Source: Streptomyces paradoxus (GTDB lineage Bacteria; Actinomycetota; Actinomycetes; Streptomycetales; Streptomycetaceae). From it: a DNA stretch of 64,000 nucleotides. Shown here in pieces: positions 5,886-50,603 of the stretch. Below the pieces are notes generated by a model. That model made no database searches. It was given only the letters and a program-made list of their open reading frames with translations, and was not told the origin of the DNA. The stretch spans positions 676,186 to 740,185 of the forward strand of contig NZ_JACHGV010000001.1 in assembly GCF_014202475.1 (NCBI RefSeq), read 5' to 3'. Positions within the stretch are counted from its first letter, which is position 1, and every line of letters begins with the position of its first letter. The translations under genes and the position numbers were made by a program.

Positions 5886-6048
5886 GGCCCAGGCCCTCTC
5901 TCCCCGCCCACGCAAGATCTGTGCCGCGTCACCACCGTACGGCGCCCGCCGGTGGCGATGTGAGGCAATGCGGGAATTGCCCACGCGGGGTGCGCACCGG
6001 CGTACGACCCCGTGCGCCGGTGCTGTCAGGCCCTCGGCCGGTGCCCGT

Positions 6049-8430
6049 TCAGTCCTCGTGGCTCAGCTGGAGATCCCGCTCGGTACGGCCTCCTCCGGCG
6101 ACCTGGAGCACGGTGGCCACGGGCGGGTAGCCGGCGGCGATGACGGTGTACTCGCCGGAGGACAGGTCGACGAAGCGGAATGTGCCGTCGGCGCCGGTGG
6201 TGAGGGTGTCGACGACGTTGCCCGCCACGTCGAGCAGCGTCACGCGCGCGTCCTCGACGGGCCGGCCGCCGCCCGCCCGGACGGTGCCGCGCAGCACGGC
6301 GCCACCGGCCAGTTCGATGTCCCGGCGGGTCTCGCGCGCGGCCTGGACGGTGACGGGGAGCGCGGCCGGGCGGAAGGCGGGCGCACTGGCGGCGAGGGTG
6401 TACTCGCCGGCGACCAGATCGGTGATGACGTAGCCGCCCTCCCGGCCGCTGCGGGTGGTGGCCACGACCTCGCCGTGCACGTTGGTGAGCGTGACGGTGG
6501 CGTCCCGTACGGGCGTGCCGTCGGCGGTGACGACGGTGCCGATCAGGTTTCCTGCGCCGCCGAGGACGATGTCGAGTTCGACGGGGCGTTCGCCGACGGT
6601 CACGGAGACCGCCTGCGGCTGGTGGCCGCCGGCCGTGGCGATCAGCACGTACGAGCCCGGCCCCGGGGTGGCCAGTGCGTAGCGCCCGTCCTCTCCGCTG
6701 GCGCCGCGTCCGGTCTGCTGCCCGGTGGCGTCGATGAGGGTGAGCGCCGCGCGGGGCACGACGGTCCCGTCGTGGTGCTGCACCGAGCCGCACACGGGCC
6801 CGCCGGCTGCGTACGCCCGGGCCTGCGGGATCGTCCCCGGCGCCGTGTCCGGGGCGGTGACGGAGGCGTTGTGGGACACCAGGGGTTTCTCCTTGAGGAA
6901 GAGGGCGATGACCAGTCCGAGGACGAGCACCGGCACCAGGTAGAGGAAGATCCGCGGCATGGCGTCGGCGTACGCCCGGATGTAGTCGTCGCGCAGGGCC
7001 GGGGGCAGGGCGTGCACCAGCTGCGGGGTGATGGACTCGGGGTCCGGCAGCCCGGTGCCCGCGCGGGCGGGCAGGCGCTCGGCGAGGGCGTCGGTGAGCC
7101 GGCCGGCGAAGAGGGTGCCGAAGACGGCGGCTCCGACGCTGCCGCCGATCTGCCGGAAGTAGTTGTTGGCGCTGGTGGCCGTGCCGAGGTCGGCCGGGCG
7201 CACGGAGTTCTGCACGGCGAGGATCAGCACCGGCATCACCATGCCGATGCCGGCGCCGAGGACGGCCATCCAGATGCTGTAGTGCAGCCGGGGCGTGCCC
7301 ACCTCCAGCCGGGAGAGCAGCCACATGCCCACGACGGAGAGGATGCCGCCGAGGACCGGGTAGGCCTTGTAACGGCCGGTGTGGCTGATGAGCCGGCCGA
7401 CGACGACCGAGGCGCCGACGATGCCGCCCATCATCGGCAGCATGAGCAGGCCCGACTCGGTGGCGGAGGCCCCGTCGACCATCTGCAGGTACGTCGGCAG
7501 ATAGCCGGCGGCGCCGAACAGCCCGACGCCGACCACCAGGCCGACCAGGCCGGTGACGTTGAAGACGGAGTCCCTGAACAGCCGCAGAGGGATGAGGGGT
7601 TCGACGGCGAAGTGCTCGGTGACGAGGAAGAGGACGGTCGCCGCCGCCGCTCCGGCCGCGAGGCCGAGGATCACGCGCGAGCCCCAGGCGTACTCGGTGC
7701 CGCCCCAGCTGGTCAGCAGGACCAGGCAGGTGGAGGCGGCGGTCAGCAGCAGCGCGCCGAGGACGTCCAGCCGGGCCCTGGCTGCCGGTTTGGGGAGCTT
7801 CAGCGCGACGGCGACGACGACGAGGGTGACCAGGCCGAAGGGGACGTTGACGTAGAAGCACCAGCGCCAGGAGAGGTGGTCCGTGAAGTAGCCGCCGAGC
7901 AACGGCCCGGCCACGGAGGCGAGACCGAAGGCAGCGCCGATCAGGCCCATGTAGCGGCCGCGCCGCCGGGGCGGCACGATGTCCGCGATGATCGCCTGGA
8001 CACCGATCATGAGGCCGCCCGCGCCGACGCCCTGCAGGGCGCGGAAGGCGATCAGCTGGTCCATGGTCTGCGCCCGCCCCGCGAGCGCGGAGCCGGCGAC
8101 GAAGACGACGATCGCGAACTGGAAGACGCCCTTGCGGCCGAGGAGGTCGCCGAGCTTGCCGTAGATCGGCAGTCCGACGGTGGCGGTGAGCAGGTAGGCG
8201 GTGATGGCCCAGGACATGCGGTCCAGGCCGTGCAGTTCACCGACGATCTTCGGGAGCGCGGTGGCGACGATCATCTGCTCCAGGGCGGCCAGGAGCAGGG
8301 CGAGCATGAGCGCGAAGAAGACCAGCCGGACCCGGCGGGTGCTGGGCCCGGTGTCCGGTTCCGGCGGCGGTGCGGGGGTCTCGGGAGGTGCCACCGCCGG
8401 TTCGTCCTGCGCCAGAGTGATCCCGCCCAC
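6049..8430 (-). CDS. DHA2-family MFS exporter with three C-terminal CarboxypepD_reg-like repeats
   Basis: A 793-residue protein. Residues about 30-510 form a 14-helix drug:H+ antiporter of the EmrB/QacA type (early [18 protein letters not shown], motif [14 protein letters not shown], antiporter motif C region [12 protein letters not shown]). After the last helix come three tandem beta-sandwich repeats of about 80 residues, starting near 548, 628 and 710, each with the pattern G-T-V-x3-G-x-P-V-x-D-A-x-V-T-L and ending in GEYT-like turns, as in carboxypeptidase regulatory domains. The repeats should face outside or inside depending on the helix number; an even number with a cytosolic N-terminus puts them in the cytosol. 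The start is a GTG with GGGGAG upstream. Substrate unknown. Confidence 0.87.
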
Positions 8431-8586
8431 TCACCGCTCCCCTCGTCGCGCTGCCGCGCAATTCCCGCGTAAAAGCGACAACTACGAGCAAGCGCGACGA
8501 GTTACGGCGCAGGAGCGAGCCGTACGGAGATCACCCGAACCGGTGAGGGGCGGCAACACCCCTGTCCTGTCCGCGTCTTGGGAGGG

Positions 8587-9030
8587 CTACTTCTCGACCT
8601 CGGCGGCGAGCTTGGTGAGCATCACGTCGTAGATACGGCCGAGGCCCTTGGGGGCGAAGGTCTTCTCGAAGAAGCCGCCGATGCCGCCGGCCCCGGTCCA
8701 GGTGGTGGTCACGACGACCCGGGACTTGCCCTCGCCGGCCGGGGTGACCCGCCAGGTGGTGACCATGGAGGAGTTGCGGTCCTTCTCGACCAGCTCCCCG
8801 TCGGTGGGCTCACTGACCTCCAGGAGGCAGTCGCGCACGCGCTTGCTGGTGGCCTGGAGCTTCCAGTGGACGAGGGTGCCCTCGCCGTCCCCGCCCTCCC
8901 GGACCTCGTACTCGCTGAACTGCTCGGGCAGCAGCTTCGCGCGCGTGCCGTTGTAGTCGGCGAGGGCGTCGAACACCGTCTCCGCGTCCGCCGCGACGAT
9001 CCGCTCCGTAGTGGCTTCGACCTGCGCCAT
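8587..9030 (-). CDS. SRPBCC (START-like) family protein
   Basis: A 147-residue protein of the polyketide-cyclase/SRPBCC fold: ERIVAADAETVFDALADYNG at the start is the usual first strand plus helix, and the closing helix FEKTFAPKGLGRIYDVMLTKLAAEVEK closes the hydrophobic cavity. These proteins bind or carry hydrophobic ligands; no catalytic residues can be assigned. A strong GGAGGAAA site precedes the ATG, which eliminates the longer upstream reading. It is transcribed divergently from the radical-SAM gene across a 169-base region that holds a LexA-type box, so it may share that control. Confidence 0.85.
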   Translation of the reverse strand: MAQVEATTERIVAADAETVFDALADYNGTRAKLLPEQFSEYEVREGGDGEGTLVHWKLQATSKRVRDCLLEVSEPTDGELVEKDRNSSMVTTWRVTPAGEGKSRVVVTTTWTGAGGIGGFFEKTFAPKGLGRIYDVMLTKLAAEVEK

Positions 9031-39090: not shown

Positions 39091-39507
39091 TCAGGCGTCA
39101 CCCCTGCGTGGGGTGCACAGGGCCCAGATGATGAACGCGGACATCGCGATCATGACCACGGACCAGACCGGGTAGGCGGGCAGGGAGAGGAAGTTGGCGA
39201 TGATGACGAGTCCGGCGATGCCCACGCCGGTGACGCGCGCCCAGCCCGACCCCTGGAACAGACCCATGCTGACGAGCACGGCGACCACACCCAGGATGAG
39301 GTGGATCCAGCCCCAGCCGGTGAGGTCGAACGCGAAGACGTAGTTGGGGGTCGAGACGAAGACCTCGTCCTCGGCGATGGCTGCGATGCCGCGCAGCACG
39401 GCGAGGATCCCGGCGATCATGAGCATGACGGCCGCGAAGACCATCATGCCCGTGGCCAAGTTGTGCTTCGCCGTCCTGTGCCCGTGCGTAGGGTGTGTGG
39501 CTGCCAT
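39091..39507 (-). CDS. DUF7144-like four-helix membrane protein
   Basis: A 138-residue membrane protein with helices near 18-42, 66-84, 89-107 and 112-131. The motif TGWGWIHLILGVVAVLVSMGLF is typical of a widespread actinobacterial family named DUF7144, often in stress loci. Function unknown. It follows the SHOCT-domain gene by 32 bases on the same strand and would be read with it from the dyad at 40089. Confidence 0.82.
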   Translation of the reverse strand: MAATHPTHGHRTAKHNLATGMMVFAAVMLMIAGILAVLRGIAAIAEDEVFVSTPNYVFAFDLTGWGWIHLILGVVAVLVSMGLFQGSGWARVTGVGIAGLVIIANFLSLPAYPVWSVVMIAMSAFIIWALCTPRRGDA

Positions 39508-39539: not shown

Positions 39540-40010
39540 TCAGCGACCGGAGGTGGAGGTGGCGTGCGGCGAGGATGCCGACGCGCCGGAGCCGCTCAGG
39601 ACCAGGTGCTTGGCCTTGCGGAACTCCTCGTCGGTGATGTCACCGCGGGCGCGGATCTCGGACAGCCTGGCGAGTTCGTCGACGCTGCTCGTCCGGTCGT
39701 CGCCGCCCCGGGCGGTCTGCCGTATGTAGCTGTCCATGGCCTCCTGCTGCTCGCGGGCGTGTGCGATCTCCCTGCGTCCCATGTTCTTGCCGCGGGCGAT
39801 GACGTAGACGAACACCCCGAGGAAGGGCAGGACGATGCAGAACACCAGCCAGCCCGTCTTGGCCCAGCCGCTCAGGGAGTCGTCGCGGAAGATGTCGAAG
39901 ACGATCCGGAAGAGCAGCACGAACCACATGATCCACAGGAAGAACCACAGCATCGCCCAGAAGGCGCTCAGCAGTGGAAAGTCGTACGCCAGGTAGGTCT
40001 GCGCACTCAT
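39540..40010 (-). CDS. SHOCT-domain membrane protein with PLDc_N-like helices
   Basis: A 156-residue protein with two membrane helices (15-38 and 50-71) of the phospholipase-D nuclease N-terminal (PLDc_N) type, a charged coiled region, and a SHOCT motif at about 112-139 (ELARLSEIRARGDITDEEFR). SHOCT motifs are thought to mediate oligomerisation. GAGGAG precedes the ATG. A copy of the island dyad lies 79 bases upstream. Confidence 0.85.
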   Translation of the reverse strand: MSAQTYLAYDFPLLSAFWAMLWFFLWIMWFVLLFRIVFDIFRDDSLSGWAKTGWLVFCIVLPFLGVFVYVIARGKNMGRREIAHAREQQEAMDSYIRQTARGGDDRTSSVDELARLSEIRARGDITDEEFRKAKHLVLSGSGASASSPHATSTSGR

Positions 40011-40088
40011 GTCACTCCTCCGTCCCGGGCGGGGGCCCGGCAGCCTTATGTGCCGTTCTCAGCGTGGTCGCGGTCCGGGACGGCTGCC

Positions 40089-40105
40089 TCACCCGGAGCG
40101 GGTGA
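40089..40105. promoter_or_regulatory. Island dyad A (perfect 7-3-7)
   Basis: TCACCCGGAGCGGGTGA is a perfect inverted repeat, TCACCCG with CGGGTGA around GAG, upstream of the SHOCT gene. It overlaps the YihY stop codon. It is the best match to the five-copy consensus of this region. Confidence 0.7.
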
Positions 40106-40970
40106 TCGTGCGGCCGCCGCGCGGCCGGCCACGGGTGCCGATAGCCCTGCGGTACCAGGCGGACGTGGCCACCGTCTCGCCGAGTGCCAGCCCCGAGACG
40201 GCTACCAGGAAGACCGCGATCAGCCACGACAGGAAGGTGAACACCGGTCCCAGCAGGCCGAACGCCTCCAGGCTGCGGTCCATGGCCGTGGGCATCAGCA
40301 GACGGGCCGCCCAGCTGAGCCCGACCGTCCCCGTCCCCGCCAGGACCGCTCCCGGCAGCAGCTCGCTCCAGCCGACCCTGGCGCCCAGCAGCAGGTGCTG
40401 CGACCACCACCACAGCAGCGTCGCCCCGAGCAGGGACAGCACCGCTCCGAGAACCGGGCCGACGCCGAAGCCGCCGCGCATCGGCGCCTGGAGGAGCAGG
40501 TAGACGAGCCAGACCAGCAGCCACAGCGGCCAGCGCCAGGCCGCCTCCCGCAGCGGGGCCCGGGGCAGGTTCCAGCACCGCTGGCACACCGCCTGGAGCG
40601 CCCGGCTGAAGGCGGTCGCCGAAGCGAGCGTGACCAGCAAGCCCACGGCCCCGACCGTGTTCGCGGTGGGTCCGGTCGCCTCGAAGGCGCGCCGCACCTC
40701 CTCCAGCGTGTCGCCCCGGACCCCGAGCAGCTCCTGGAGCGCGTCGGCCAGCAGGTCCTGTACGCCGTCGGGTGCGAACGCCGCCACCGTCATCAGCAGG
40801 GGCAGCGCGGCGAGGAAGGCCTGGGCGGCCAGCCGGACCGCCCCTTCCACGATGTTGAGCGCGACCAGCCGGGGCAGCAGCCGGGCCGCGGGGCCGGACC
40901 TCAGGTGCGCCGAGATCCGCTCGGCCCTCGACCTGCGGGACGGCGGATCCGGGGCGGCGGTGCCGGACAT
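40089..40970 (-). CDS. YihY/BrkB family inner-membrane protein
   Basis: A 293-residue protein with six membrane segments and the family blocks AAQAFLAALPLLMTVAAF, TAFSRALQAVCQRCWNLPR and FGLLGPVFTFLSWLI. The family is sometimes called RNase BN by an old error; its true role is unknown. A basic cytosolic tail (RGRPRGGRT) ends the protein. It starts 3 bases after the stop of the larger membrane protein gene and belongs to the same minus-strand unit. Confidence 0.86.
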   Translation of the reverse strand: MSGTAAPDPPSRRSRAERISAHLRSGPAARLLPRLVALNIVEGAVRLAAQAFLAALPLLMTVAAFAPDGVQDLLADALQELLGVRGDTLEEVRRAFEATGPTANTVGAVGLLVTLASATAFSRALQAVCQRCWNLPRAPLREAAWRWPLWLLVWLVYLLLQAPMRGGFGVGPVLGAVLSLLGATLLWWWSQHLLLGARVGWSELLPGAVLAGTGTVGLSWAARLLMPTAMDRSLEAFGLLGPVFTFLSWLIAVFLVAVSGLALGETVATSAWYRRAIGTRGRPRGGRTITRSG

Positions 40971-40973
40971 GAC

Positions 40974-42329
40974 TCATGGAGCCGCGGCCGGGCCCGTCCG
41001 CGTGGTATCCGCGCCCAGTGCGGCAGCGGCGAGCGTCTCCAGGACGATCAGCACGACGACGACCAGGCCTGCCACGAGCGCGACCGCGCCGGCCGTGGGG
41101 TGGTTCCACAGGACGAGGGCCAGCACGCCCGCGCCGATGACGATGCCGGTGGTCCACGAGCGGTGCTCCGCCAGGGCGAGGCCGGCGGATCCGGTGCGCA
41201 GCCCGGCACGGGACAGGCCCCGGCCGGCGGCCGAGGTGCCCCGGCGGGCGAGGTTCCGGACGGCCCGGGCCCCGCGCCCGGGGCCGTAGAGGTAGGCGGC
41301 CAGTGCGGTGATCACGGCCACCACGAGCAGGGTGCGGGTGCTGTCGCGCAGGAAGCGGACGAAGGTGTCGTAGATCGCCGCGGCGGCGTCCGGCGGCAGC
41401 GTCGCGCTCGGCACGGCGTCCAGGTAGACCCGCCGCAGGAGGGCGAGCGCCACCAGGAACACGATCATCATCACGCCGACGCCGACAGCCGTGACCAGCA
41501 GCATGCGCCGGTGCCGGGGAGCGGTCCACACGGCGAGGGCTGCCAGGGCGACCGTCAGCACGGGCAGCCAGGTACCCATGGTGTCCAGCAGCCTCATCGC
41601 GTCCTTCGCTTTGCCCAGTTCCTCGGCCTGGAACAGCGTGATGGTCCGGTCGGTGTCCGGGATGGCCGCGGCCTTGTCGAAGCCCGCGTCGACGAGACGC
41701 TGTCGCACCTCGTCGACCACCTGGCCGAGGTCGAGTTGCACGGTGTCGCCCTCGGCGCGGAGCGCGCCCTCGCGCTCTCCGGTGAGCATGCTCACCACGG
41801 CGGCGTGCGCCCGCGTGTTGGCGCCCTCCCACACCTGCGCGAAGACATCGCTGGTCACGACGCGGCTGATGGTCCGGTCCACGACGTCGCGGACGGCGGA
41901 GCGCAGGGGCCCGGCGAGGGACTCGGACGCCTCCACCACGCGCGGCGGTGCCCCGGCGTCCGCCAGCGTCCGCGTGAGCGCGTCCGTCACCGCCTCGACA
42001 TCCACCTGGGCCACCACGCGGTCGGTCAGCCGGTCGGTCACCACGTCCTGGACCGCCGGGTCCGAGGCGAGCGGTGCCACGGTCTGCACGTACCGGCCCG
42101 TGTCGGAGACCTGGTCGTCCACCCAGGTGGCGACGACCGACAGCGGCGCGAGCAGCAGGGCCAGGACGAGCAGCACGCCGGCGCCGGAGTAGCGCAGCCG
42201 GCGGTGCCGTACGCCTGCGTTCCGGCGCAGCCGCTCGTACTCGGCGTCTTCTTCCGTGCTCAGGAAGCGCCCCGACCCCTCATTCCCCTCGCCGGGAGGT
42301 GACGGGACGGGACCGTCGGTGGGGGCCAT
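40974..42329 (-). CDS. Polytopic membrane protein with large extracytoplasmic loop
   Basis: A 451-residue protein I do not recognise by name. An acidic N-terminus (about 1-50) leads to a helix near 52-73, a soluble stretch of about 180 residues rich in Val/Asp/Arg (DRLTDRVVAQVDVEAVTDAL, probably outside the membrane), then helices around 250-275, 280-305, 335-355 and two near the C-terminus. Actinobacterial genomes hold many such proteins in stress or envelope loci. AAGGAG lies 6 bases before the ATG. It is 3 bases upstream of the YihY gene and 55 bases downstream of the HdeD gene. Confidence 0.78.
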   Translation of the reverse strand: MAPTDGPVPSPPGEGNEGSGRFLSTEEDAEYERLRRNAGVRHRRLRYSGAGVLLVLALLLAPLSVVATWVDDQVSDTGRYVQTVAPLASDPAVQDVVTDRLTDRVVAQVDVEAVTDALTRTLADAGAPPRVVEASESLAGPLRSAVRDVVDRTISRVVTSDVFAQVWEGANTRAHAAVVSMLTGEREGALRAEGDTVQLDLGQVVDEVRQRLVDAGFDKAAAIPDTDRTITLFQAEELGKAKDAMRLLDTMGTWLPVLTVALAALAVWTAPRHRRMLLVTAVGVGVMMIVFLVALALLRRVYLDAVPSATLPPDAAAAIYDTFVRFLRDSTRTLLVVAVITALAAYLYGPGRGARAVRNLARRGTSAAGRGLSRAGLRTGSAGLALAEHRSWTTGIVIGAGVLALVLWNHPTAGAVALVAGLVVVVLIVLETLAAAALGADTTRTGPAAAP

Positions 42330-42384
42330 GGCTGCTCCTTGCATGCGGTGACGGCGGTCGCCGTCGTCGGGTGTCCCGCCTGGC

Positions 42385-43047
42385 TCAGGCATTCCCGGTG
42401 GGGCCGTGCGGAACGGCCGTGGACGTTCCGCGCAGCGCGGCCCGCCAGGCGAACGCGAGCCCCGCCTCGGCCAGTCCGAGCAGGACGAGCCACAGGCCGA
42501 GCAGCCGGGTCAGCGCGCGGGCCGACTCCGCGGGCAGGGCGAGCACCACGATGCCCGCGACGATGCCCAGCACCGCGGCGCCCAGGACGAAGCCGCGGTG
42601 CGGCAGGTCCCGGGCGGCGAGGGCGGTGTAGAGGGTGAGGATGCCGGACACCAGCCAGACGAGGCCGACGATCAGCGACAGCGCGGTGATGGTCTGCAGC
42701 GGGTTCCGCAGGCACAGCACTCCGGCCAGCACGTACAGCACGGCCAGGAGCAGACTGGGCAGGCGGTGGCCCTGCTCCTGCCGGGCGAAGGTCGCGACGA
42801 AGCGGAACGCTCCGGCCGCCAGCAGGTACAGGCCCATCAGCACCGCCACGACGTGCAGGGTGGCCTCGGGCCAGACCAGGAGCAGGATGCCCGGCACGAG
42901 GGTCGCCACCGCCGAGGCGAGGATCCACGTCCAGGACCGTCCGAGGGCCGCCAGCAGCTGCGCGGGGTCGCCCGCGGTGCTGTACGCAGGCCCCGCGGGC
43001 TCGTACTCGGCTCCCGCACGTGGCCCCTGACCCGGTGACGTGGCCAT
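42385..43047 (-). CDS. HdeD family membrane protein
   Basis: A 220-residue protein with six helices in three hairpins (about 40-205). The sequence LVPGILLLVWPEATLHVVAVLMGLYLL is the classic HdeD/DUF308 repeat unit, and LPSLLLAVLYVLAGVLCLRNP repeats it. HdeD in Escherichia coli is an acid-stress membrane protein; the biochemical role is unknown. It heads a minus-strand unit, with GGAGGAG before the ATG and the island dyad B about 80 bases upstream. Confidence 0.88.
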   Translation of the reverse strand: MATSPGQGPRAGAEYEPAGPAYSTAGDPAQLLAALGRSWTWILASAVATLVPGILLLVWPEATLHVVAVLMGLYLLAAGAFRFVATFARQEQGHRLPSLLLAVLYVLAGVLCLRNPLQTITALSLIVGLVWLVSGILTLYTALAARDLPHRGFVLGAAVLGIVAGIVVLALPAESARALTRLLGLWLVLLGLAEAGLAFAWRAALRGTSTAVPHGPTGNA

Positions 43048-43122
43048 GACTCCTCCTCACCGGCGATCCGCCGGTCTGCGGGAACGCCCTTGCCGAGCAG
43101 CGTCGCGTGCCCCGCCGGCCTC

Positions 43123-43147
43123 GGGATCACCCCCGGCGGGTGATCCC
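43123..43147. promoter_or_regulatory. Island dyad B (10-base perfect arms)
   Basis: GGGATCACCC (43123-43132) and GGGTGATCCC (43138-43147) form a perfect 10-5-10 inverted repeat midway between the divergent HdeD and potassium-channel genes. The inner 17 bases (43127-43143) match the island consensus TCACCCG-N3-CGGGTGA with one mismatch. Confidence 0.7.
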
Positions 43148-43212
43148 TCTCCCGCGCCGCCGCGGTGAGGTGGTGAGGACCCCATCTGACGGCAGGGAGC
43201 ACGAGACACGAG

Positions 43213-43851
43213 ATGAACGATCCAGCGCTGGCCCGGACCACGTCCCCCCGGCTGCGGCAGAAGCAGGACCAGGAGCAGGACGAGGAGCAGGAGCGGCTTC
43301 GGCGGCAGCACGGTCCGCGGCGACGCGCGCGGGCCGCCGTCCTCGTGCGTGCGGTGCTCATCGCGACCGGTCTCGTCACCGTCTACTACCTGCTGCCTCT
43401 GGACGGGCGGAGCACGACCGGCACCTCGGTCCTGCTCGCCTGCGGGCTGCTGCTGTGCGTCGTGGTCTTCTGGTGGGAGGTGCGGGCCATCACGTACTCG
43501 CCCTACCCGCGGCTGAAGGCCGTCGAGGCCCTGGCCGCCACGCTGGTCCTCTTCCTCCTGCTCTTCGCCGGCACCTACTACCTGCTGGAGCACTCCACCC
43601 CGGGTTCCTTCAGCGAACCGCTGACCAAGACGGACTCCCTGTACTTCACGCTCACCACGTTCACCACGGTCGGGTACGGCGACATCGCCGCCCGTTCCCA
43701 GACCGGACGCGTACTGACGATGATTCAGATGGCGGGCGGACTGCTGCTGGTGGGCGTCGCCGCACGGATCCTCGCCGGTGCCGTACAGGCGGGGCTGCGC
43801 CGTCGGGGACGGGAGCCCTCGGACGACTTCACCTCGCGGCCGGAGGACTGA
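43213..43851 (+). CDS. Two-pore-type potassium channel family protein
   Basis: A 212-residue membrane protein. After a charged Gln/Glu/Arg-rich cytosolic N-terminus (about 1-40) come helices near 42-61, 70-88 and 105-124, the pore loop with selectivity filter TVGYGD (152-157), and a last helix near 165-187. No RCK/TrkA domain is attached. It would conduct K+ passively, perhaps setting membrane potential in stress. The DUF2252 gene starts 3 bases after its stop. The island dyad B lies about 66 bases upstream. Confidence 0.92.
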   Translation: MNDPALARTTSPRLRQKQDQEQDEEQERLRRQHGPRRRARAAVLVRAVLIATGLVTVYYLLPLDGRSTTGTSVLLACGLLLCVVVFWWEVRAITYSPYPRLKAVEALAATLVLFLLLFAGTYYLLEHSTPGSFSEPLTKTDSLYFTLTTFTTVGYGDIAARSQTGRVLTMIQMAGGLLLVGVAARILAGAVQAGLRRRGREPSDDFTSRPED

Positions 43852-43854
43852 GCC

Positions 43855-45264
43855 ATGACCGTACCGGGCCCCCTCACGACCTACCTGTCCCCGGCCGAGC
43901 GGGCGGCCGAGGGCCGGAACGTGCGACGGCACGTCCCCCGCTCGTCCCACGGCTTCTTCGACGCCGGGCCACAGCGCTTCGACCCGGTCGAGGTGGTGGA
44001 ACGTCAGTCGGCCACCCGCATACCGGAGTTGGTGCCGATCCGCTACGCCCGCATGCTCGAATCCCCGTTCCGCTTCTACCGCGGCGCGGCGGCCGTCATG
44101 GCGGCCGATCTCGGGGCCGTCGCGGACACCGGACTGCGGGTGCAGCTCTGCGGCGACGCCCATCTGCTGAACTTCCGGCTGCTGGCCTCGCCGGAACGCC
44201 ACCTGGTGTTCGACATCAACGACTTCGACGAGACCCTGGCCGGGCCGTTCGAGTGGGACGTCAAGCGGCTCGCGACCAGTTTCGCCATCGCGGGCCGGGC
44301 CAACGGTTTCGAGGCCGAGGAGCAGAACCGGGTGGTGGAGACGTGCGTACGGGCCTACCGGCAGCGGATGCGGGAGTTCGCGGGCATGCGCACCCTGGAC
44401 ATCTGGTACGCGCAGGACGACGCCGACCGGCTGCGGGAACTGATGGCCGCGTCGATGACCAAGGAGGCGAGGCGCCGTACCGCCGAGGCGACGGCGAAGG
44501 CCAGGACCCGCACCCACCTCCAGGCCTTCGCGAAACTCACCCGGGTCACGGACGAAGGCCGGCGGATCGCCCCTGACCCGCCCCTGATCACGCCGCTGCG
44601 CGACCTGGTGGACGACTCCGCGCCGCACGGGCAGGAGAAGGAGCTGCGCGCCGTCCTGGAGGGATACGTGCGGACCCTGTCGTCCGAGCGCCGGCATCTG
44701 CTGCGCCGCTACCGGCTGGTCGACATCGCCCGCAAGGTCGTGGGCGTCGGCAGCGTCGGAACCCGCTGCTGGATCGTGCTCCTGCTCGGCCGGGACGACG
44801 ACGATCCGCTGCTGCTGCAGGCCAAGGAGGCACAGGCGTCGGTACTCGCCGACCACACCGACGGCATCCGCTACGACAACGAGGGCCGCCGCGTGGTGGC
44901 GGGCCAGCGGCTGATCCAGACGACCAGCGACATCCTCCTCGGCTGGACGCACGCCGTGGGCCTCGACGGGCACGAGCGGGACTTCTATGTGCGTCAGCTG
45001 CGCGACTGGAAGGGCATCGCCCGGCCGGACACGATGGACCCGGGCCTGCTGCGGCTGTTCGCCGGGCTGTGCGGGGCGAGTCTGGCGAGGGCCCATGCCC
45101 GCTCGGGCGACCCCATCGCCATCGGGGCGTACCTCGGCGGCGGGAACGGCTTCGACCGCGCGCTCACCGCGTTCGCGCAGTCCTACGCCGACCGGAACGA
45201 GCGGGACTTCGCCGCGCTGGGCGCCGCCGCCCGGTCCGGCAGGATCCGGACGGCGGCCTCGTGA
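43855..45264 (+). CDS. DUF2252 family protein (kinase-like fold)
   Basis: A 469-residue soluble protein of the DUF2252 family. LCGDAHLLNFRL and VFDINDFDETLAGPFEWDVKRL mimic the HGDxxxxN and DFD/G motifs of aminoglycoside-phosphotransferase-like kinases, so a small-molecule or protein kinase activity is possible but not shown. FYVRQLRDWKG and YADRNERDF near the end are also conserved in the family. It is directly coupled to the potassium channel gene. Function unknown. Confidence 0.85.
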   Translation: MTVPGPLTTYLSPAERAAEGRNVRRHVPRSSHGFFDAGPQRFDPVEVVERQSATRIPELVPIRYARMLESPFRFYRGAAAVMAADLGAVADTGLRVQLCGDAHLLNFRLLASPERHLVFDINDFDETLAGPFEWDVKRLATSFAIAGRANGFEAEEQNRVVETCVRAYRQRMREFAGMRTLDIWYAQDDADRLRELMAASMTKEARRRTAEATAKARTRTHLQAFAKLTRVTDEGRRIAPDPPLITPLRDLVDDSAPHGQEKELRAVLEGYVRTLSSERRHLLRRYRLVDIARKVVGVGSVGTRCWIVLLLGRDDDDPLLLQAKEAQASVLADHTDGIRYDNEGRRVVAGQRLIQTTSDILLGWTHAVGLDGHERDFYVRQLRDWKGIARPDTMDPGLLRLFAGLCGASLARAHARSGDPIAIGAYLGGGNGFDRALTAFAQSYADRNERDFAALGAAARSGRIRTAAS

Positions 45265-45286
45265 GCCGGTACCTCCTGTGAGCCGG

Positions 45287-45484
45287 TCACTCCGGCAACT
45301 GGCGCATCTCCACGACCCTGAGCCCCAGCGACTGGAAACGGGTCAGCAGCCCGTACAGGTGGGCGTCGTCCACGACCGGGCCGTACAGCAGCGTCTGCCC
45401 GGACACCACCACGTGGTCCAGTTCCGGGAAGACTTTGGCCAGTGTCTCCGACATCTGTCCGGCGATGCGGATCTCGTAGCGCAT
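45287..45484 (-). CDS. Small 65-residue conserved-looking protein
   Basis: A short protein, MRYEIRIAGQMSETLAKVF at the start and LLTRFQSLGLRVVEMRQLPE at the end, with the alternation of strands and amphipathic helices of a ferredoxin-like fold. I cannot name a function. GGGAGAG precedes the ATG, codon use matches its neighbours, and the island dyad C lies about 82 bases upstream, all of which support a real gene. Confidence 0.72.
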   Translation of the reverse strand: MRYEIRIAGQMSETLAKVFPELDHVVVSGQTLLYGPVVDDAHLYGLLTRFQSLGLRVVEMRQLPE

Positions 45485-45565
45485 GAGCTGCTCTCCCGCG
45501 GGCGGCCCGAGAGGGTGAGGCACGCCCTTCCCTAGCGATGGTCCGCCCCGGCGAACCGTGCGCCC

Positions 45566-45582
45566 TCACCCGGCGCAGGTGA
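45566..45582. promoter_or_regulatory. Island dyad C
   Basis: TCACCCGGCGCAGGTGA matches the consensus TCACCCG-N3-CGGGTGA with one mismatch and lies 82 bases before the start of the 65-residue gene on the minus strand, in the gap after the 172-residue membrane protein gene. Confidence 0.65.
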
Positions 45583-45608
45583 ACCTCCGGCCCGGCTCGC
45601 GGGGCGCG

Positions 45609-46127
45609 TCAGTGCTTCACGACGAACTTGAAGGCGATGATCAGCAGACCGAGCAGCAGGTTCACCGCCGCCGAGGCGGCCAGCTGCCCCCGGGAGGCAC
45701 CGGCCCGGACCGCCGCGGCGACCGACCAGCCGACCTGCTCCGCCACGGCCACGGCGAGCGCCAGCCACACGGCGCCCTGTATGTCCAGCCCGAGCAGGGG
45801 GCTGACGGCGACAGCGGCGGCGGGCGGGACCGCGGCCTGCACGATCGGCCACTCCTCGCGGCACACGTGCAGGACGGTCGCGCGGTCGACGGCCCGCTGC
45901 GCCAGCCGCGCTCCGAACAGCTGCGCGTGCACGTGCGCCAGCCAGAACACCCCGCCCGTCAGCACGAGCAGCAGCACCAGTTCCAGCCGGGGCAGCGCGC
46001 CCAGGGTTCCGGCCCCGATCACCACGGAGGCGGCGAGCATGGCCCCGTAGACGCCGCCGGTGTAGTCGGCGTGGGCCCGGCGCTCCGCGCTCCGTGCCCT
46101 GCGTGCGGCACCGCGGTCCGTGGCCAT
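45609..46127 (-). CDS. Integral membrane protein of unknown function
   Basis: A 172-residue protein with a basic N-terminus (RGAARRARSAERR) and about four to five helices; DYTGGVYGAMLAASVVIGAG begins the first, and HVHAQLFGARLAQ lies between helices. The pattern recalls small VIT/DUF-type actinobacterial membrane proteins but I cannot name it safely. Its ATG overlaps the MFS stop by one base (TGATG), so it is translationally coupled to that transporter. Confidence 0.75.
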   Translation of the reverse strand: MATDRGAARRARSAERRAHADYTGGVYGAMLAASVVIGAGTLGALPRLELVLLLVLTGGVFWLAHVHAQLFGARLAQRAVDRATVLHVCREEWPIVQAAVPPAAAVAVSPLLGLDIQGAVWLALAVAVAEQVGWSVAAAVRAGASRGQLAASAAVNLLLGLLIIAFKFVVKH

Positions 46128-47734
46128 CAGACCCCTCCTTCGCCGGCGGGGCGCCGCGCAGGGCGCTGCCCCGCGGTCGGCAGATGCGAGGTGACCAGGA
46201 AACTGGCGACGGTGATCCCACCGGTGGCGAGGACGGCCGCCTTCAGCCCGTCGAGCTGGGCCGACGCGTAGGAGTCCGTGACCGCCTCGACCTCCGCGGG
46301 CGGCAGACCGGCCCGTTCGGCCGCCGAACGGACCTGGCCCGTGGAGACGAAGCTGACCCCGGCCTCCAGGGCCACGCCGGTCTGTCTGCGGGCCTCCTCC
46401 GACAGCCGGGGGTCGGCCTCGACCTGGGTGCTGAAGGCGTGCACCAGGGCCCCGATGAGCAGCGATCCGATGAGCGCGGTGCCCAGCGCGGAGCCCAGGT
46501 TCTGGGCCGTGAACTGGAGCCCTCCCGCCTCACTGCGCTCCTCCTCGCCGACGCCCGACTGGACGACGTTGCCCAGCTGCGAGGCGAGCAGGCCCATGCC
46601 CACGCCCAGCAGGGCCATGGCCCCGGCGAACTGGGCGTCGTCGATGGCGGGGTCGATCGTCGCCAGCAGCCACACGATCGCTCCCGCGAGGGTCAGCAGA
46701 GCCAGCCGCACCACCCGGCGCGGACCCGCCAGCCGGCCGAGCCGTGAGGCGAGCAGGGAGGCCGCGAGCATGGTGAGGGACACAGGGAGCAGCCGCAGGC
46801 CGGTCTCGAACGCGTCGAAGCCCTGCACCACCTGCAGGTACAGCGGGATCGTGAAGAACAGCCCCAGCAGGATGAGGTTCTGGCTCAGGAGCATCAGCAG
46901 ACCGGACCGCAGGACCGGTCTGCCCAGCAGTGGCAGGTGCACCAGGGCGTCGGCCCCCCGGGCGTCCCGCCGCCGCTCCCAGTGCACGAAGACGGACAGG
47001 ACCACCGCTCCTGCGCCGACGACGAACAGGGTGGGGGCGAAGCCCAGGACGGTGAAGGGCGGGTTGCGCGGCTGCACCCAGCCCCAGGTGCTGCTCTGGA
47101 GCACTCCGAGCACGCCCAGTCCGAGGCCGGTGGCGGAGAGCACCGCACCCACGGCGTCGAGCCGGGGCCGCGGTTCCCTCGGGGCCGTCCGGGGGATCGC
47201 GCGGTGCAAGAGCAGTACGGCCACGACGACCACGACCTCGCCGGCGAAGACCAGACGCCAGGTGAGGTACGTCGTCATCCAGCCGCCCAGCAGCGGGCCC
47301 ACCGCGATGCCGGCGCCGGCGAGGCCGCCTATCACGCCGTAGGCGACGGCCCGGTCCCGTCCGCCGTAGGACTCGGCGACGAGGGCCGCCATGGAGGGCA
47401 GGACCATGGCGGCGCCGATCCCCTCGATGACCGACCAGCCCAGGGCGAGGACCCACAGACTGGGCGCGACGGCGGTCAGGGCCGAGCCGGTGCCGTAGAC
47501 CGCCAGCCCCAGGAGGAACATGCGCCGGCGGCCCAGGACGTCGCCGAGCCGTCCGCCGACCATCATGAACGCCGCCATGACCAGGGCGTACAGGGTGATG
47601 ACCGCCTGGATGGCGGTGACCTCGGTGTCGAAGTCCTCGACCAGCTTGCTGATGGACACGTTCATGACGGAGGTGTCCAGCACCATCAGGAACTGAGCGG
47701 TGCCGAGGACGAACAGGGGGCGCCAGCTTCTCAC
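46127..47734 (-). CDS. DHA2-family MFS transporter
   Basis: A 535-residue 14-helix transporter of the EmrB/QacA type: LVLDTSVMNVSISKL near the start, GDVLGRRRMFLLGL as motif A, and GGLAGAGIAVGPLLGG as motif C. A large loop near 460-500 precedes the last helix. It probably exports drugs or metabolites; substrate unknown. It starts with GTG and lacks a strong ribosome site. The small membrane protein gene follows with a one-base overlap, and the island dyad D lies 35 bases upstream. Confidence 0.9.
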   Translation of the reverse strand: MRSWRPLFVLGTAQFLMVLDTSVMNVSISKLVEDFDTEVTAIQAVITLYALVMAAFMMVGGRLGDVLGRRRMFLLGLAVYGTGSALTAVAPSLWVLALGWSVIEGIGAAMVLPSMAALVAESYGGRDRAVAYGVIGGLAGAGIAVGPLLGGWMTTYLTWRLVFAGEVVVVVAVLLLHRAIPRTAPREPRPRLDAVGAVLSATGLGLGVLGVLQSSTWGWVQPRNPPFTVLGFAPTLFVVGAGAVVLSVFVHWERRRDARGADALVHLPLLGRPVLRSGLLMLLSQNLILLGLFFTIPLYLQVVQGFDAFETGLRLLPVSLTMLAASLLASRLGRLAGPRRVVRLALLTLAGAIVWLLATIDPAIDDAQFAGAMALLGVGMGLLASQLGNVVQSGVGEEERSEAGGLQFTAQNLGSALGTALIGSLLIGALVHAFSTQVEADPRLSEEARRQTGVALEAGVSFVSTGQVRSAAERAGLPPAEVEAVTDSYASAQLDGLKAAVLATGGITVASFLVTSHLPTAGQRPARRPAGEGGV

Positions 47735-47768
47735 CCGTCCATCGCAGCCGCAGAGCCGTCGTCGCGCC

Positions 47769-47785
47769 TCACCCGCCCCGGGCGA
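47769..47785. promoter_or_regulatory. Island dyad D
   Basis: TCACCCGCCCCGGGCGA matches TCACCCG-N3-CGGGTGA with one mismatch and fills most of the 75-base gap between the LuxR-type regulator and the MFS transporter gene. Confidence 0.6.
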
Positions 47786-47809
47786 GGGGGCGAAGCCGGA
47801 CCCGTGGGG

Positions 47810-50473
47810 TCAGAGGATCCGCGCGTCGCGTGCGCGGCGCACCGCGTCGCCGCGCCGGCTCACCGCGAGCTTGCGGTAGATGCTCTTCAGGTGGGTCTTC
47901 ACGGTGTTCACCGAGACGTGGAGGTCGGCCGCGATCTCCTCCGTCGACCTCATCTCGGCCAGCCTGCGCAGCACGTCACGCTCGCGCGCGCTCAGTTCCT
48001 CGACGACGAGCGCCGGTGGCTGCGGCTGCTCCGTGGGGGCGGGGGGACCGTGCCCGGGGCCGGGGACGAGCCAGCCGCCCGCCAGCTCCCGCAGGCGGCC
48101 CGTGCTAAGCAGCGGGCGGATCCAGGGGCCGGCTTCCAGGAACGGCAGGCGCAGCTGCTCGCGCCGGCCGTCCAGGAGGGCCCGGCCGAGCAGGCGGTGG
48201 GCGGCGGTGTGGTCGCCGAGCTCGTGGGCGGCCTGGGCGCGGACCAGCGTGGCCCGGACGGTCACCGCCGGCCCGGGCCGGTCGGTCTCCGGCAGGCTGT
48301 GGAGCATCTCCAGCGCTTCTGCGGGGTGGCCCGCGGCGAGCCGGGCCCGGGCGGCTTGCACGGTGCAGGCGGCCCGGCGGTCGGCCACCCGCTCGACGAC
48401 CTTCCGGGCCGGCTCGGGCTGCCCCTGGGCCAGGTAGGCGGCGGAGGCGAGGGCAGCGGCGTGGTCCTGGGCCCAGGGTGAGCTCACGACGGCCGGGACG
48501 ATCGCGTCCGCCGCCGCCAGTGCGGCCCGGGCGTCTCCCCTGGCGAGCAGCAGCCGGCCCCGGGTGAGCACCCGGCCCGCTTCCTCGACGGGATCCTCGC
48601 CGAGCAGGTGGGAGGCGGCGACCTCGTCGAGGAGCGCCTGCGCCTCGTCGAGTTCGTCACGGTCGATGAGGACGGCGGCCCGGACCAGCGTGCCGAGTCC
48701 GGCCCCGGACCGCTGGGGCAGGCTGTACCGCTGGGCCTGGCCGGCCGCCGCCAGGGCCTTGTGCTCCGCCCGGCCGAGCCAGCCGTTCAGGTAGTCGATC
48801 AGAGCCAGATGCCCGAGCGCCTCCCACCGGGGCAGCGCCATGGCCGCTCCGCCGGGTCGTCCGGCAACCGCCGACAGGACGGTACGGGCGTCCTCGAAGC
48901 GCCCGGCCCACAGCCGGGCGGAACCCAGGTGGGTGAGCAGCAGGGCGTTCAGCTCCGGGTGCTCGTCGAGCAGGTGCCCGGGAACCTCCGGCCGGAGGGC
49001 CAGTGCCTGCTCCGCGGCGCGCTCCGCCCTGCCCGGGGTTCCGGTCAGCCGCGCCGCCAGGGCCTCCAGCAGGGCGCAGGTGAGCCCGGCCGCCGCCGGG
49101 TCCGTCGCGCCGTCCCGCGCCAGTTCCTCCTCGGCCCGGTGCAGGTGCGCCAGGCCGTGTTCGACATCGCGGCCGGCCAGCTCGCGGGCCGCGCGGACGA
49201 GGTCCGGGGCCGGGCCCCTGACGTCGGGGCCCATCCGCTCGAACAGCGCGGTCAGGTCGTCGGAGCGCAGGCCGGTGAAGAGCTGACCGAGGGCGAGGTC
49301 GTCGACCACGGCCCGTGCGGTGAACTCCCAGTCGTCCGCCGCCGCTCCCTGGGCGAGCGCTTCGGGCAGGGCTCCGGAACGCCGCAGCCACTGGGCCGCC
49401 CGGCTGCGCAGTTCCGGCTCCAGGCCGGGGAAACGCTCGCGCAGGTGGGCGCGGAGGATCTCGGCGAACAGGGGATGCAGGCTGTACCACGAGTGGCCGA
49501 GGTAGTGGACGAAGGCGTTCTCGCGCTGCAACGCGGCCAGGATGGGCTCCGCGTCGGTGCGCTGTGTCAGCACGTTGACCAGGTCGGGGCAGCAGCGCTC
49601 CAGCACGCTGATGCGCAGCAGCAGGTCCTGTGTGTCGGGTGCCTGCCGGTCGAGCACCTCGGCCAGCAGGAAGTCGGCCACCGCGCTGTGGTCCGCCTCG
49701 AACTGCTTCAGGTAGGCGTGCGGGTCCGTGCCCTGCCGGGCGGCGAGTGCGCAGAGCCTGAGACCCGCGGCCCATCCCCGGGTCCGTTCCACCAGGGCCT
49801 GCACGGCGCTCGTGGACAGGTGGAGGCCGTGCCGTGTCAGGAGCTCATGGGCCTCGTCCGGGGTGAAGGCCAGTTCGGCGTCCCGGATCTCCGTCATCTC
49901 GCCGGACGCCCGGTAGCGGTGCAGCGGCAGCAGGGGTTCGGTGCGGGTGACCAGGATCAGACGCAGGCCACGCCCGGCGTGGTGCAGGACGAACTCCAGT
50001 TGCTCGGCGATCTCGCGGGAGACCACGCGGTCGAACTCGTCGAGGACGACGAGCGTGGATGTGTCCCTGCCCTCCAGATCGGCGGCGAGGCGGGTGAGCG
50101 TCCGCCGGTCCACGCGGCTCGCTTCCGCGGGGCTGCCGACCTCGCTCGCCACCGGCACACCGGCCGCGCGCAGGGCCTGCAGCACATGCGCCCAGAAGAC
50201 GCCGGGGGCCTGATCGGTGCTCTCGGCGGTGAGCCAGGCGACCGGTTGGCGCAGGCCGGAGGCCCAGTCGGCGACCAGGAGCGTCTTGCCGGCGCCGGCC
50301 GACCCGTTGACCATCGTCAGGGGCGTCCCCAGGGCCTGGTCGAGGTGCTCGGTCAGGCGTGGCCGGCGCACGAACATGGCGGGCCGGCTGGGCAGGGCGA
50401 ACCGGGTGCGCAGCATCGGGTCGCCGGTGGGGTCGGCGAACCCCGCCTCCGGAGTCTCATCGGTCGCGGCCAT
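47810..50473 (-). CDS. MalT/LAL-type LuxR family transcriptional regulator
   Basis: An 887-residue ATP-binding regulator. Walker A is GSAGAGKT (57-64), the Walker B region LVVLDEFD, and an arginine-rich NB-ARC-like stretch follows. The middle (about 380-800) is built of helical TPR-like repeats. A LuxR/NarL helix-turn-helix closes the protein (about 820-885; LSARERDVLRRLAEMRSTEE, VNTVKTHLKSIYRKL). Such proteins oligomerise on DNA when ATP and an inducer bind. It sits inside the membrane/stress island and is divergent from the amidotransferase, making it the best local candidate for recognising the repeated dyads. AGGGGTGAG precedes the ATG. Confidence 0.88.
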   Translation of the reverse strand: MAATDETPEAGFADPTGDPMLRTRFALPSRPAMFVRRPRLTEHLDQALGTPLTMVNGSAGAGKTLLVADWASGLRQPVAWLTAESTDQAPGVFWAHVLQALRAAGVPVASEVGSPAEASRVDRRTLTRLAADLEGRDTSTLVVLDEFDRVVSREIAEQLEFVLHHAGRGLRLILVTRTEPLLPLHRYRASGEMTEIRDAELAFTPDEAHELLTRHGLHLSTSAVQALVERTRGWAAGLRLCALAARQGTDPHAYLKQFEADHSAVADFLLAEVLDRQAPDTQDLLLRISVLERCCPDLVNVLTQRTDAEPILAALQRENAFVHYLGHSWYSLHPLFAEILRAHLRERFPGLEPELRSRAAQWLRRSGALPEALAQGAAADDWEFTARAVVDDLALGQLFTGLRSDDLTALFERMGPDVRGPAPDLVRAARELAGRDVEHGLAHLHRAEEELARDGATDPAAAGLTCALLEALAARLTGTPGRAERAAEQALALRPEVPGHLLDEHPELNALLLTHLGSARLWAGRFEDARTVLSAVAGRPGGAAMALPRWEALGHLALIDYLNGWLGRAEHKALAAAGQAQRYSLPQRSGAGLGTLVRAAVLIDRDELDEAQALLDEVAASHLLGEDPVEEAGRVLTRGRLLLARGDARAALAAADAIVPAVVSSPWAQDHAAALASAAYLAQGQPEPARKVVERVADRRAACTVQAARARLAAGHPAEALEMLHSLPETDRPGPAVTVRATLVRAQAAHELGDHTAAHRLLGRALLDGRREQLRLPFLEAGPWIRPLLSTGRLRELAGGWLVPGPGHGPPAPTEQPQPPALVVEELSARERDVLRRLAEMRSTEEIAADLHVSVNTVKTHLKSIYRKLAVSRRGDAVRRARDARIL

Positions 50474-50586
50474 GGGGCTCACCCCTGCCTGCCGTCCGTC
50501 AGTCGGTCCTGAACTGGCGATCGTCCTGATCAGCATCTCAGTGTTGGCTCTGCCGCGCACGCCCGGGCCTCACCGTCCCCCGTCAA

Positions 50587-50603
50587 CCACCCGTGGCGGG
50601 CGA
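50587..50603. promoter_or_regulatory. Island dyad E (weaker copy)
   Basis: CCACCCGTGGCGGGCGA matches the consensus TCACCCG-N3-CGGGTGA with two mismatches. It lies in the divergent region, 61 bases before the amidotransferase ATG and about 114 bases from the regulator start. Confidence 0.5.

Follow-up and report, generated by a model that had tools for sequence, protein, structure and literature searches.

Class II activators of the LuxR/NarL type, such as those acting at the lux box or at NarL heptamers, bind a palindrome that covers the -35 region and has the -10 element at a fixed distance downstream, and the lux box is placed near -42 in class II activation. Regulators of the LAL family are numerous, with 14 in Streptomyces coelicolor according to PMC3282765. 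The LAL literature found in an open-access search gives no general operator for the family, and the study of the LAL SCO6993 arrived at no predicted consensus (PMC9628970). The published operator of the BldM homodimer (Group I) is the 16-bp TCACcCgnncGgGTGA, with a two-base (N2) spacer (PMC4125116). Here, we analyzed a stretch of 64 kb from Streptomyces paradoxus (assembly GCF_014202475.1, contig NZ_JACHGV010000001.1, 676,186-740,185), referred to as the window and used for all positions below, in which an island of genes that includes one for a LAL carries repeated copies of the dyad TCACCCG-N3-CGGGTGA (7-3-7, mismatches being counted over the 14 half-site bases). This repeated dyad marks matched promoters common to many Streptomyces species, and the sequence evidence argues for a real, conserved regulon that is of the activator type by its geometry. 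No description of the N3 operator was found in the open-access literature searched, which is not the whole literature.

All five copies claimed by the initial annotation, starting at 40089, 43127, 45566, 47769 and 50587 with 0, 1, 1, 1 and 2 mismatches, were re-found exactly (listed without strand):

40089..40105: dyad 1, TCACCCG-GAG-CGGGTGA, 0 mismatches, predicted operator of the SHOCT-DUF7144 promoter, overlapping the BrkB/YihY stop codon
43127..43143: dyad 2, TCACCCC-CGG-CGGGTGA, 1 mismatch, common to the divergent HdeD and K+ channel promoters
45566..45582: dyad 3, TCACCCG-GCG-CAGGTGA, 1 mismatch, predicted operator of s65, the gene of a 65-aa protein
47769..47785: dyad 4, TCACCCG-CCC-CGGGCGA, 1 mismatch, predicted operator of the MFS gene
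50587..50603: site 5, CCACCCG-TGG-CGGGCGA, 2 mismatches, doubtful

Sequence shuffles had a mean of 0.89 dyads, and only one in 100 got to five. The motif is not equally dense elsewhere in the genome, as a scan of all 8.58 Mb with a control pattern made clear: 10 dyads with at most one mismatch were found versus 1 for the control, and four of the ten fall inside the same 10.5 kb, a clustering with a binomial probability of 4.7e-10 per given 10.5-kb stretch, or, roughly corrected for the scan, about 4e-7. When two mismatches were allowed, the counts were 84 for the dyad and 45 for the control pattern; two-mismatch sites are therefore largely background, and site 5 carries little weight alone. 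Dyads 1-4 are well supported, and site 5 is doubtful and should be either dropped or kept as such. The latter lies 122 nt before the LuxR (LAL) gene and 69 nt before an amidotransferase (GATase) gene, with no -10-like hexamer 22-23 nt away on either side and few relatives having the site, so the control of these two genes from it, as initially annotated, is weakly founded. From the site centre to the gene start the distance is 87 nt for SHOCT, 88 nt for HdeD, 78 nt for the K+ channel and 90 nt for s65, in agreement with the 78-90 nt first reported, and the centre of dyad 4 lies 43 nt before the MFS start, which corrects the first reading.

Conservation was assessed in 80 loci (L001-L080; 1.54 Mb, mainly from Streptomyces, with a few from Kitasatospora and others), each surrounding a DUF2252 homolog and together making up the best 80 of 583 matches. 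With at most one mismatch, these loci hold 116 N3 dyads, against 0, 3, 1, 2, 3, 2, 2, 1, 0 and 0 for spacers of 0, 1, 2, 4, 5, 6, 7, 8, 9 and 10 bases, and exact dyads number 31 with N3 and none with any of these other spacers. Taking the loci together with the window (81 sequences), an N3 site with at most two mismatches was found within 420 nt upstream of SHOCT in 38/49 homologs, of HdeD in 24/26, of the K+ channel gene (Kch) in 14/17, of s65 in 31/39 and of MFS in 12/19, and no other spacer gave more than seven upstream sites in any gene class. The dyads precede the same genes even where the island is rearranged, and the conservation upstream of orthologous genes on which the idea of a regulon depends was borne out across the 80 loci.

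For the geometry of these promoters, a strict -10-like pattern (nAnnnT) and a looser one (N[AG]NNNT[GC]) were both tested 22-23 nt from the dyad. With the promoters aligned on the dyad, the strict hexamer stands there in 38/38 SHOCT, 30/31 s65 and 24/24 HdeD dyad-bearing promoters (92/93 in total), against averages of 1.8, 2.7 and 0.8 in six-nt control windows. Its form in these three classes is SAnnnT (CACGCT, GACGAT, GACGCT), the first base being T in 0/92. The looser, TGnnnT-like pattern occupies the same place in 13/14 Kch and 10/12 MFS promoters, other offset pairs averaging 1.8 and 0.9. The distance from hexamer to dyad is fixed and that from hexamer to start codon varies. As nulls, the hexamer was found beside 12/79 exact N3 dyads of viral contigs, a scan that gave no biological lead, and beside 2/20 exact N2 dyads. 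The GGGTGA of the promoter-proximal half-site is intact in 117 of 119 promoter-gene pairs, among which HdeD and Kch have dyads in common, and over SHOCT, s65, HdeD and MFS the mismatches number 68 in the distal half-site and 40 in the proximal one; HdeD alone is reversed (4 distal and 14 proximal, all 14 at the inner C). In the window, all four main dyads have a hexamer, the one at 43127 on both sides:

40061..40066, minus strand: -10-like hexamer CACGCT (SHOCT), 22 nt from dyad 1
43099..43104, minus strand: -10-like hexamer GACGCT (HdeD), 22 nt from dyad 2
43166..43171, plus strand: -10-like hexamer TGAGGT (K+ channel), looser pattern, 22 nt from dyad 2
45538..45543, minus strand: -10-like hexamer GACCAT (s65), 22 nt from dyad 3
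47741..47746, minus strand: -10-like hexamer TGCGAT (MFS), looser pattern, 22 nt from dyad 4

If the hexamer is read as the -10 element, the dyad spans -51 to -35, or lies a base further out, with its centre at about -43, which would be the position of a class II activator; on this reading the promoters show both marks of the class II LuxR/NarL type, overlap with -35 and a fixed distance to -10. In S. paradoxus, 6 nt separate the MFS hexamer from the start codon, and thus the transcript may be leaderless there; in the nine relatives fitting the looser pattern the distance is 49-108 nt.

The genes of the island are the following:

39091..39507, minus strand: DUF7144 membrane protein (Pfam PF23636), downstream of SHOCT
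39540..40010, minus strand: SHOCT/PLDc_N membrane protein (Pfam)
40089-40970, minus strand: BrkB/YihY protein, on the same strand as HdeD and after the 451-aa gene
40974-42329, minus strand: 451-aa protein without Pfam match, between HdeD and BrkB
42385..43047, minus strand: HdeD-like (DUF308) membrane protein (Pfam)
43213..43851, plus strand: K+ channel (Ion_trans_2, Kch; Pfam)
43855..45264, plus strand: DUF2252 protein (Pfam, 483 bits), 3 nt past the channel gene
45287..45484, minus strand: s65, 65-aa protein with a predicted ferredoxin-like fold
45609-46127: 172-aa protein without Pfam match, overlapping the end of the MFS gene by one base
46127..47734, minus strand: MFS (DHA2-like) transporter (Pfam)
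47810..50473, minus strand: LAL, 887-aa MalT-like LuxR regulator (Pfam AAA_22, N-terminal ATPase, and GerE helix-turn-helix, HTH, C-terminal)

Besides the DUF2252 protein, the products are mainly membrane proteins (SHOCT/PLDc_N, HdeD/DUF308, ion channel, BrkB, MFS and DUF7144). The MFS protein scored 192.7 bits against NCBIfam EmrB, under the cut-off of 230.2. The LAL, the only one of ten island proteins scanned to have a DNA-binding Pfam match, scored 28.6 bits for AAA_22 (cut-off 27) and 54.6 bits for GerE, a Walker A motif (GSAGAGKT) was read in it by eye, and it has the features of LAL/MalT-like proteins, namely about 900 aa, an N-terminal ATP-binding domain and a C-terminal LuxR HTH. It does not qualify as a MalT equivalog (263.2 bits against NCBIfam PRK04841, cut-off 537). 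The s65 protein has no match in Pfam or NCBIfam; its AlphaFold model has a ferredoxin-like fold (pLDDT 93.5), for which the best hit of a fold search against PDB had E 0.013 and was not informative. In the 34 of 80 loci that bear a LAL (threshold of at least 90 residues at no less than 40% identity), s65 lies within 3.3 kb of it every time.

We propose that a dimer of LuxR/NarL-type (GerE) DNA-binding domains would bind TCACCCG-N3-CGGGTGA and that the four main dyads would be operators of one activator, the promoter-proximal half-site lying in the -35 region and the dyad centre at about -43/-44 with the hexamer counted as -12 to -7. Such an activator would recruit RNA polymerase to promoters having a poor -10 (SAnnnT or TGnnnT) 22-23 nt on, and the dyad at 43127 could serve two divergent promoters, those of HdeD and the K+ channel. 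It is most likely the MalT-like LAL of the island (47810-50473), by family resemblance a signal-controlled ATPase, which would switch on a membrane/envelope regulon comprising SHOCT, DUF7144, HdeD, K+ channel-DUF2252, s65 and MFS in the island and further targets elsewhere. We infer activation, the LAL as binder and a role in envelope or membrane stress. That a single regulator acts on the island through a single operator, as put forward in the initial annotation, gains support from ortholog conservation, spacer specificity and fixed promoter geometry, and its choice of the adjacent MalT-like protein still gives the best candidate, since the sites track the LAL in 199 genomes, also away from the island.

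These 199 genomes of the genus were divided into 74 with a LAL (LAL+; match of at least 42% identity at E<=1e-60) and 125 without (LAL-), nine genomes with weaker or partial matches being classed LAL-, including G057 with a 62%-identical fragment; the association statistics that follow ignore shared ancestry, with no phylogenetic correction. Exact N3 sites occur in 58/74 LAL+ and 15/125 LAL- genomes (Fisher p 1.7e-21, kinship ignored), and exact sites with N2 (46/74 and 75/125) or N4 (37/74 and 60/125) are evenly spread, with p 0.88 for each. Counts of N3 sites with at most one mismatch follow the same trend on a higher background (7.16 in 63 genomes with a LAL of at least 49% identity or split, 6.27 in 11 intermediate ones and 4.48 in the 125 others). 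Among 95 exact N3 sites, 75 were listed (12 of 16 for LAL- genomes): 36 within 15 kb of the LAL, 27 elsewhere in LAL+ genomes and 12 in LAL- genomes. Away from the LAL, a -10-like hexamer accompanies 15/27 listed sites in LAL+ and 0/12 in LAL- genomes (p 0.0009), some of the 27 being pieces of the island on other contigs of broken assemblies (e.g., G099, G026). SHOCT homologs adjoin the distant LAL+ sites in 9/25 loci fetched, and the stretches fetched around the 12 listed LAL- sites have no island-gene homolog. For SHOCT homologs of similar identity, chosen by hand from the listing, the site is upstream in 15/20 from LAL+ and 3/20 from LAL- genomes. In the 80 loci, all 34 with a LAL carry sites, and 89 of these 93 sites have the hexamer. 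In addition, the motif K-T-H-x-[KR], whose residues, judging by NarL, probably contact bases, is present only in the LAL and BldM among 41 of the 56 GerE domains of the own genome that were examined, which would fit a shared half-site. Taken together, a LAL that binds and activates from the four main dyads is well supported by these sequence data and is the most likely explanation.

Concerning the LAL gene itself, in L028:6568-9152 it matches in eight pieces only and is probably broken or badly sequenced there; the dyads of that locus are kept. In the 80 loci plus the window, sites upstream of LAL genes number 20/45, including fragments of one gene, and make up 10 distinct sequences. General autoregulation of the LAL was rejected: none of these ten has nAnnnT and only two have the looser pattern, and a site within 400 nt upstream was found in 5/30 genomes, three of the five being the own genome and those of its two closest LALs. 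The GATase gene was likewise rejected as a target, a site being upstream in 3/10 homologs and the -10-like hexamer in 0/3 of them, even by the looser pattern.

Several observations weigh against the LAL as the activator of all these promoters, the scarcity of sites before its own gene being one. The strict hexamer is found in only 1/14 Kch and 0/12 MFS promoters, 16/74 LAL+ genomes have no exact site, and 5/20 SHOCT homologs of LAL+ genomes lack one, with 3 of the 15 sites present being 324-378 nt from the start. The presence of the LAL and of the island genes is linked by descent, and MalT uses short boxes and not a 17-bp palindrome (PMC9628970). Furthermore, sites are carried by 13/46 loci without a LAL (sought in the loci only), and 19 of their 23 sites, in 11 loci, have the hexamer, so this promoter can stand far from a LAL or without one. 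Some of these contigs end early; L004, L064, L067 and L079 hold about 20 kb without a LAL, which may lie elsewhere in those genomes. Three LAL- genomes (G139, G008 and G191) keep the SHOCT site, two of them also the -10, and have no LAL at E<=1e-15, the assemblies of G139 and G008 being very fragmented; in a repeat search of nine LAL- genomes, these three among them, eight had no LAL at that threshold and one had a 31%-identical part. In L201 (G139) and L215 (G008), dyad and -10 are kept before SHOCT without a detectable LAL, and either the LAL was lost or left unassembled, or another activator acts at these promoters.

The last alternative can be generalized: another LuxR/NarL-type response regulator, encoded elsewhere, might bind the N3 dyads, the LAL being merely a linked member of the regulon. 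The own genome has 56 GerE matches to choose from, dyad and -10 persist in genomes and loci without a LAL, and in some lineages LAL genes have upstream sites. Nevertheless, no GerE protein besides the LAL was found in the window or in most island loci (a second one occurs in L033, L035 and L062), no other island protein scanned has a DNA-binding match, and the listed distant sites with a -10 are all in LAL+ genomes, which leaves such a regulator unlikely. A more specific candidate is BldM, whose homodimer might tolerate a third spacer base and place the island in the aerial-growth programme. A receiver-GerE protein of 203 aa encoded in the genome is taken as BldM from its length and its surroundings: 1.3 kb separate its gene from a homolog of guaB (IMPDH), and the gene of a sigma factor lies in the interval, a neighbourhood that we take to be that of bldM. 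SCO4768 is presumably bldM as well. PMC3282765 lists SCO4768 with 203 aa. The operator TCACcCgnncGgGTGA has the same half-sites with one spacer base fewer (PMC4125116), so the initial statement that no described regulator has this consensus does not fully stand, and BldM shares K-T-H-x-[KR] with the LAL. By the N2 criterion, however, the island dyads were rejected as BldM Group I operators: all four main sites are N3, as are 116 of the 117 N2-or-N3 sites in the 80 loci, where N2 is not enriched. N2 is equally frequent with and without a LAL, N3 follows the LAL, and the hexamer is rare beside exact N2 sites. With one more base in the spacer, a half-site is turned on the helix by about 34 degrees relative to its partner, which also counts against BldM, and we consider its binding to N3 quite unlikely. 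The sole N2 site of the window at up to two mismatches, TCACCCGAACCGGTGA, is at 8531-8546 with 1 mismatch.

A different question is whether the dyads are operators of an activator at all. A site over the -35 region might also block polymerase, as expected of a repressor operator, but the -10-like hexamers are poor, with no initial T in three classes, and the arrangement is the one seen with class II activators, so that repression seems improbable. It is extremely improbable that the dyads act in RNA, as hairpins of terminators or leaders, or that they are palindromes arisen by chance in GC-rich DNA between genes. In principle the half-sites could pair into a 7-bp stem closed by a 3-nt loop, and one dyad overlaps a stop codon; with its fixed distance to the hexamer, however, the dyad would precede the likely transcript, which contradicts a hairpin or terminator, the proximal half keeps its base sequence while the partner half varies, and the spacer control and genome association argue against chance.

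Of the 84 own-genome sites with at most two mismatches, 50 were examined, and nine have a -10-like hexamer. Among the six with at most one mismatch outside the island, three are in coding DNA (L081, L082 and L085), that of L084 is in a called gene, and that of L086 has a hexamer on one side and no clear target gene. The remaining one, at C3:901299 (L083:3001-3017), is flanked by the genes of an Asp23 protein and of another DUF7144 protein, has a hexamer on either side, and is the only convincing further target predicted in this genome. Sites in other loci and genomes precede DUF7144, diacylglycerol-kinase-like and sulfatase genes. In L053:6259-9106, a locus with LAL and s65, three dyads lie around the gene of a sulfatase (6667-9021) and the divergent gene of a radical-SAM/SPASM protein (4863-6284).

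These results give one LAL a candidate operator, along with a promoter geometry and a list of targets for which any Streptomyces genome can be searched. They also provide a clear example in which two regulators may recognize a common half-site, with one base of spacer distinguishing them. The functions of SHOCT, DUF7144, HdeD, DUF2252 and the 65-aa family become testable as one response. Going further, we tentatively suggest, as a possibility somewhat short of even chances, that the LAL ATPase governs a membrane-stress regulon present in much of the genus, that one spacer base separates N2/BldM from N3/LAL, and that s65, itself a target, feeds back on the LAL.

Compared with known systems, the island resembles that of OsdR/DevR in having presumed stress genes of Streptomyces under a response regulator; the OsdR/DevR dormancy operator was rejected as a match, its consensus AGGGCCGATCGGCCCT being unrelated to the dyad (PMC5069765). 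The LAL is like the LAL/MalT family in size, N-terminal ATPase and C-terminal GerE HTH, whereas MalT boxes are short, GGA[TG]GA (PMC9628970), and the proposed island operator is a palindrome of 17 bp that recurs upstream of numerous genes and in numerous species. LuxR/NarL class II systems share with the island the palindrome over -35 and the fixed -10 distance, and differ in sequence and in the 7-3-7 spacing; their regulators are pheromone or phospho-receiver proteins, while the one proposed here is a large ATPase. The BldM Group I operator comes close in its half-sites TCACCCG/CGGGTGA, palindromic form, GerE-type HTH and activator function, and differs in its spacer of two bases instead of three and in its developmental targets.

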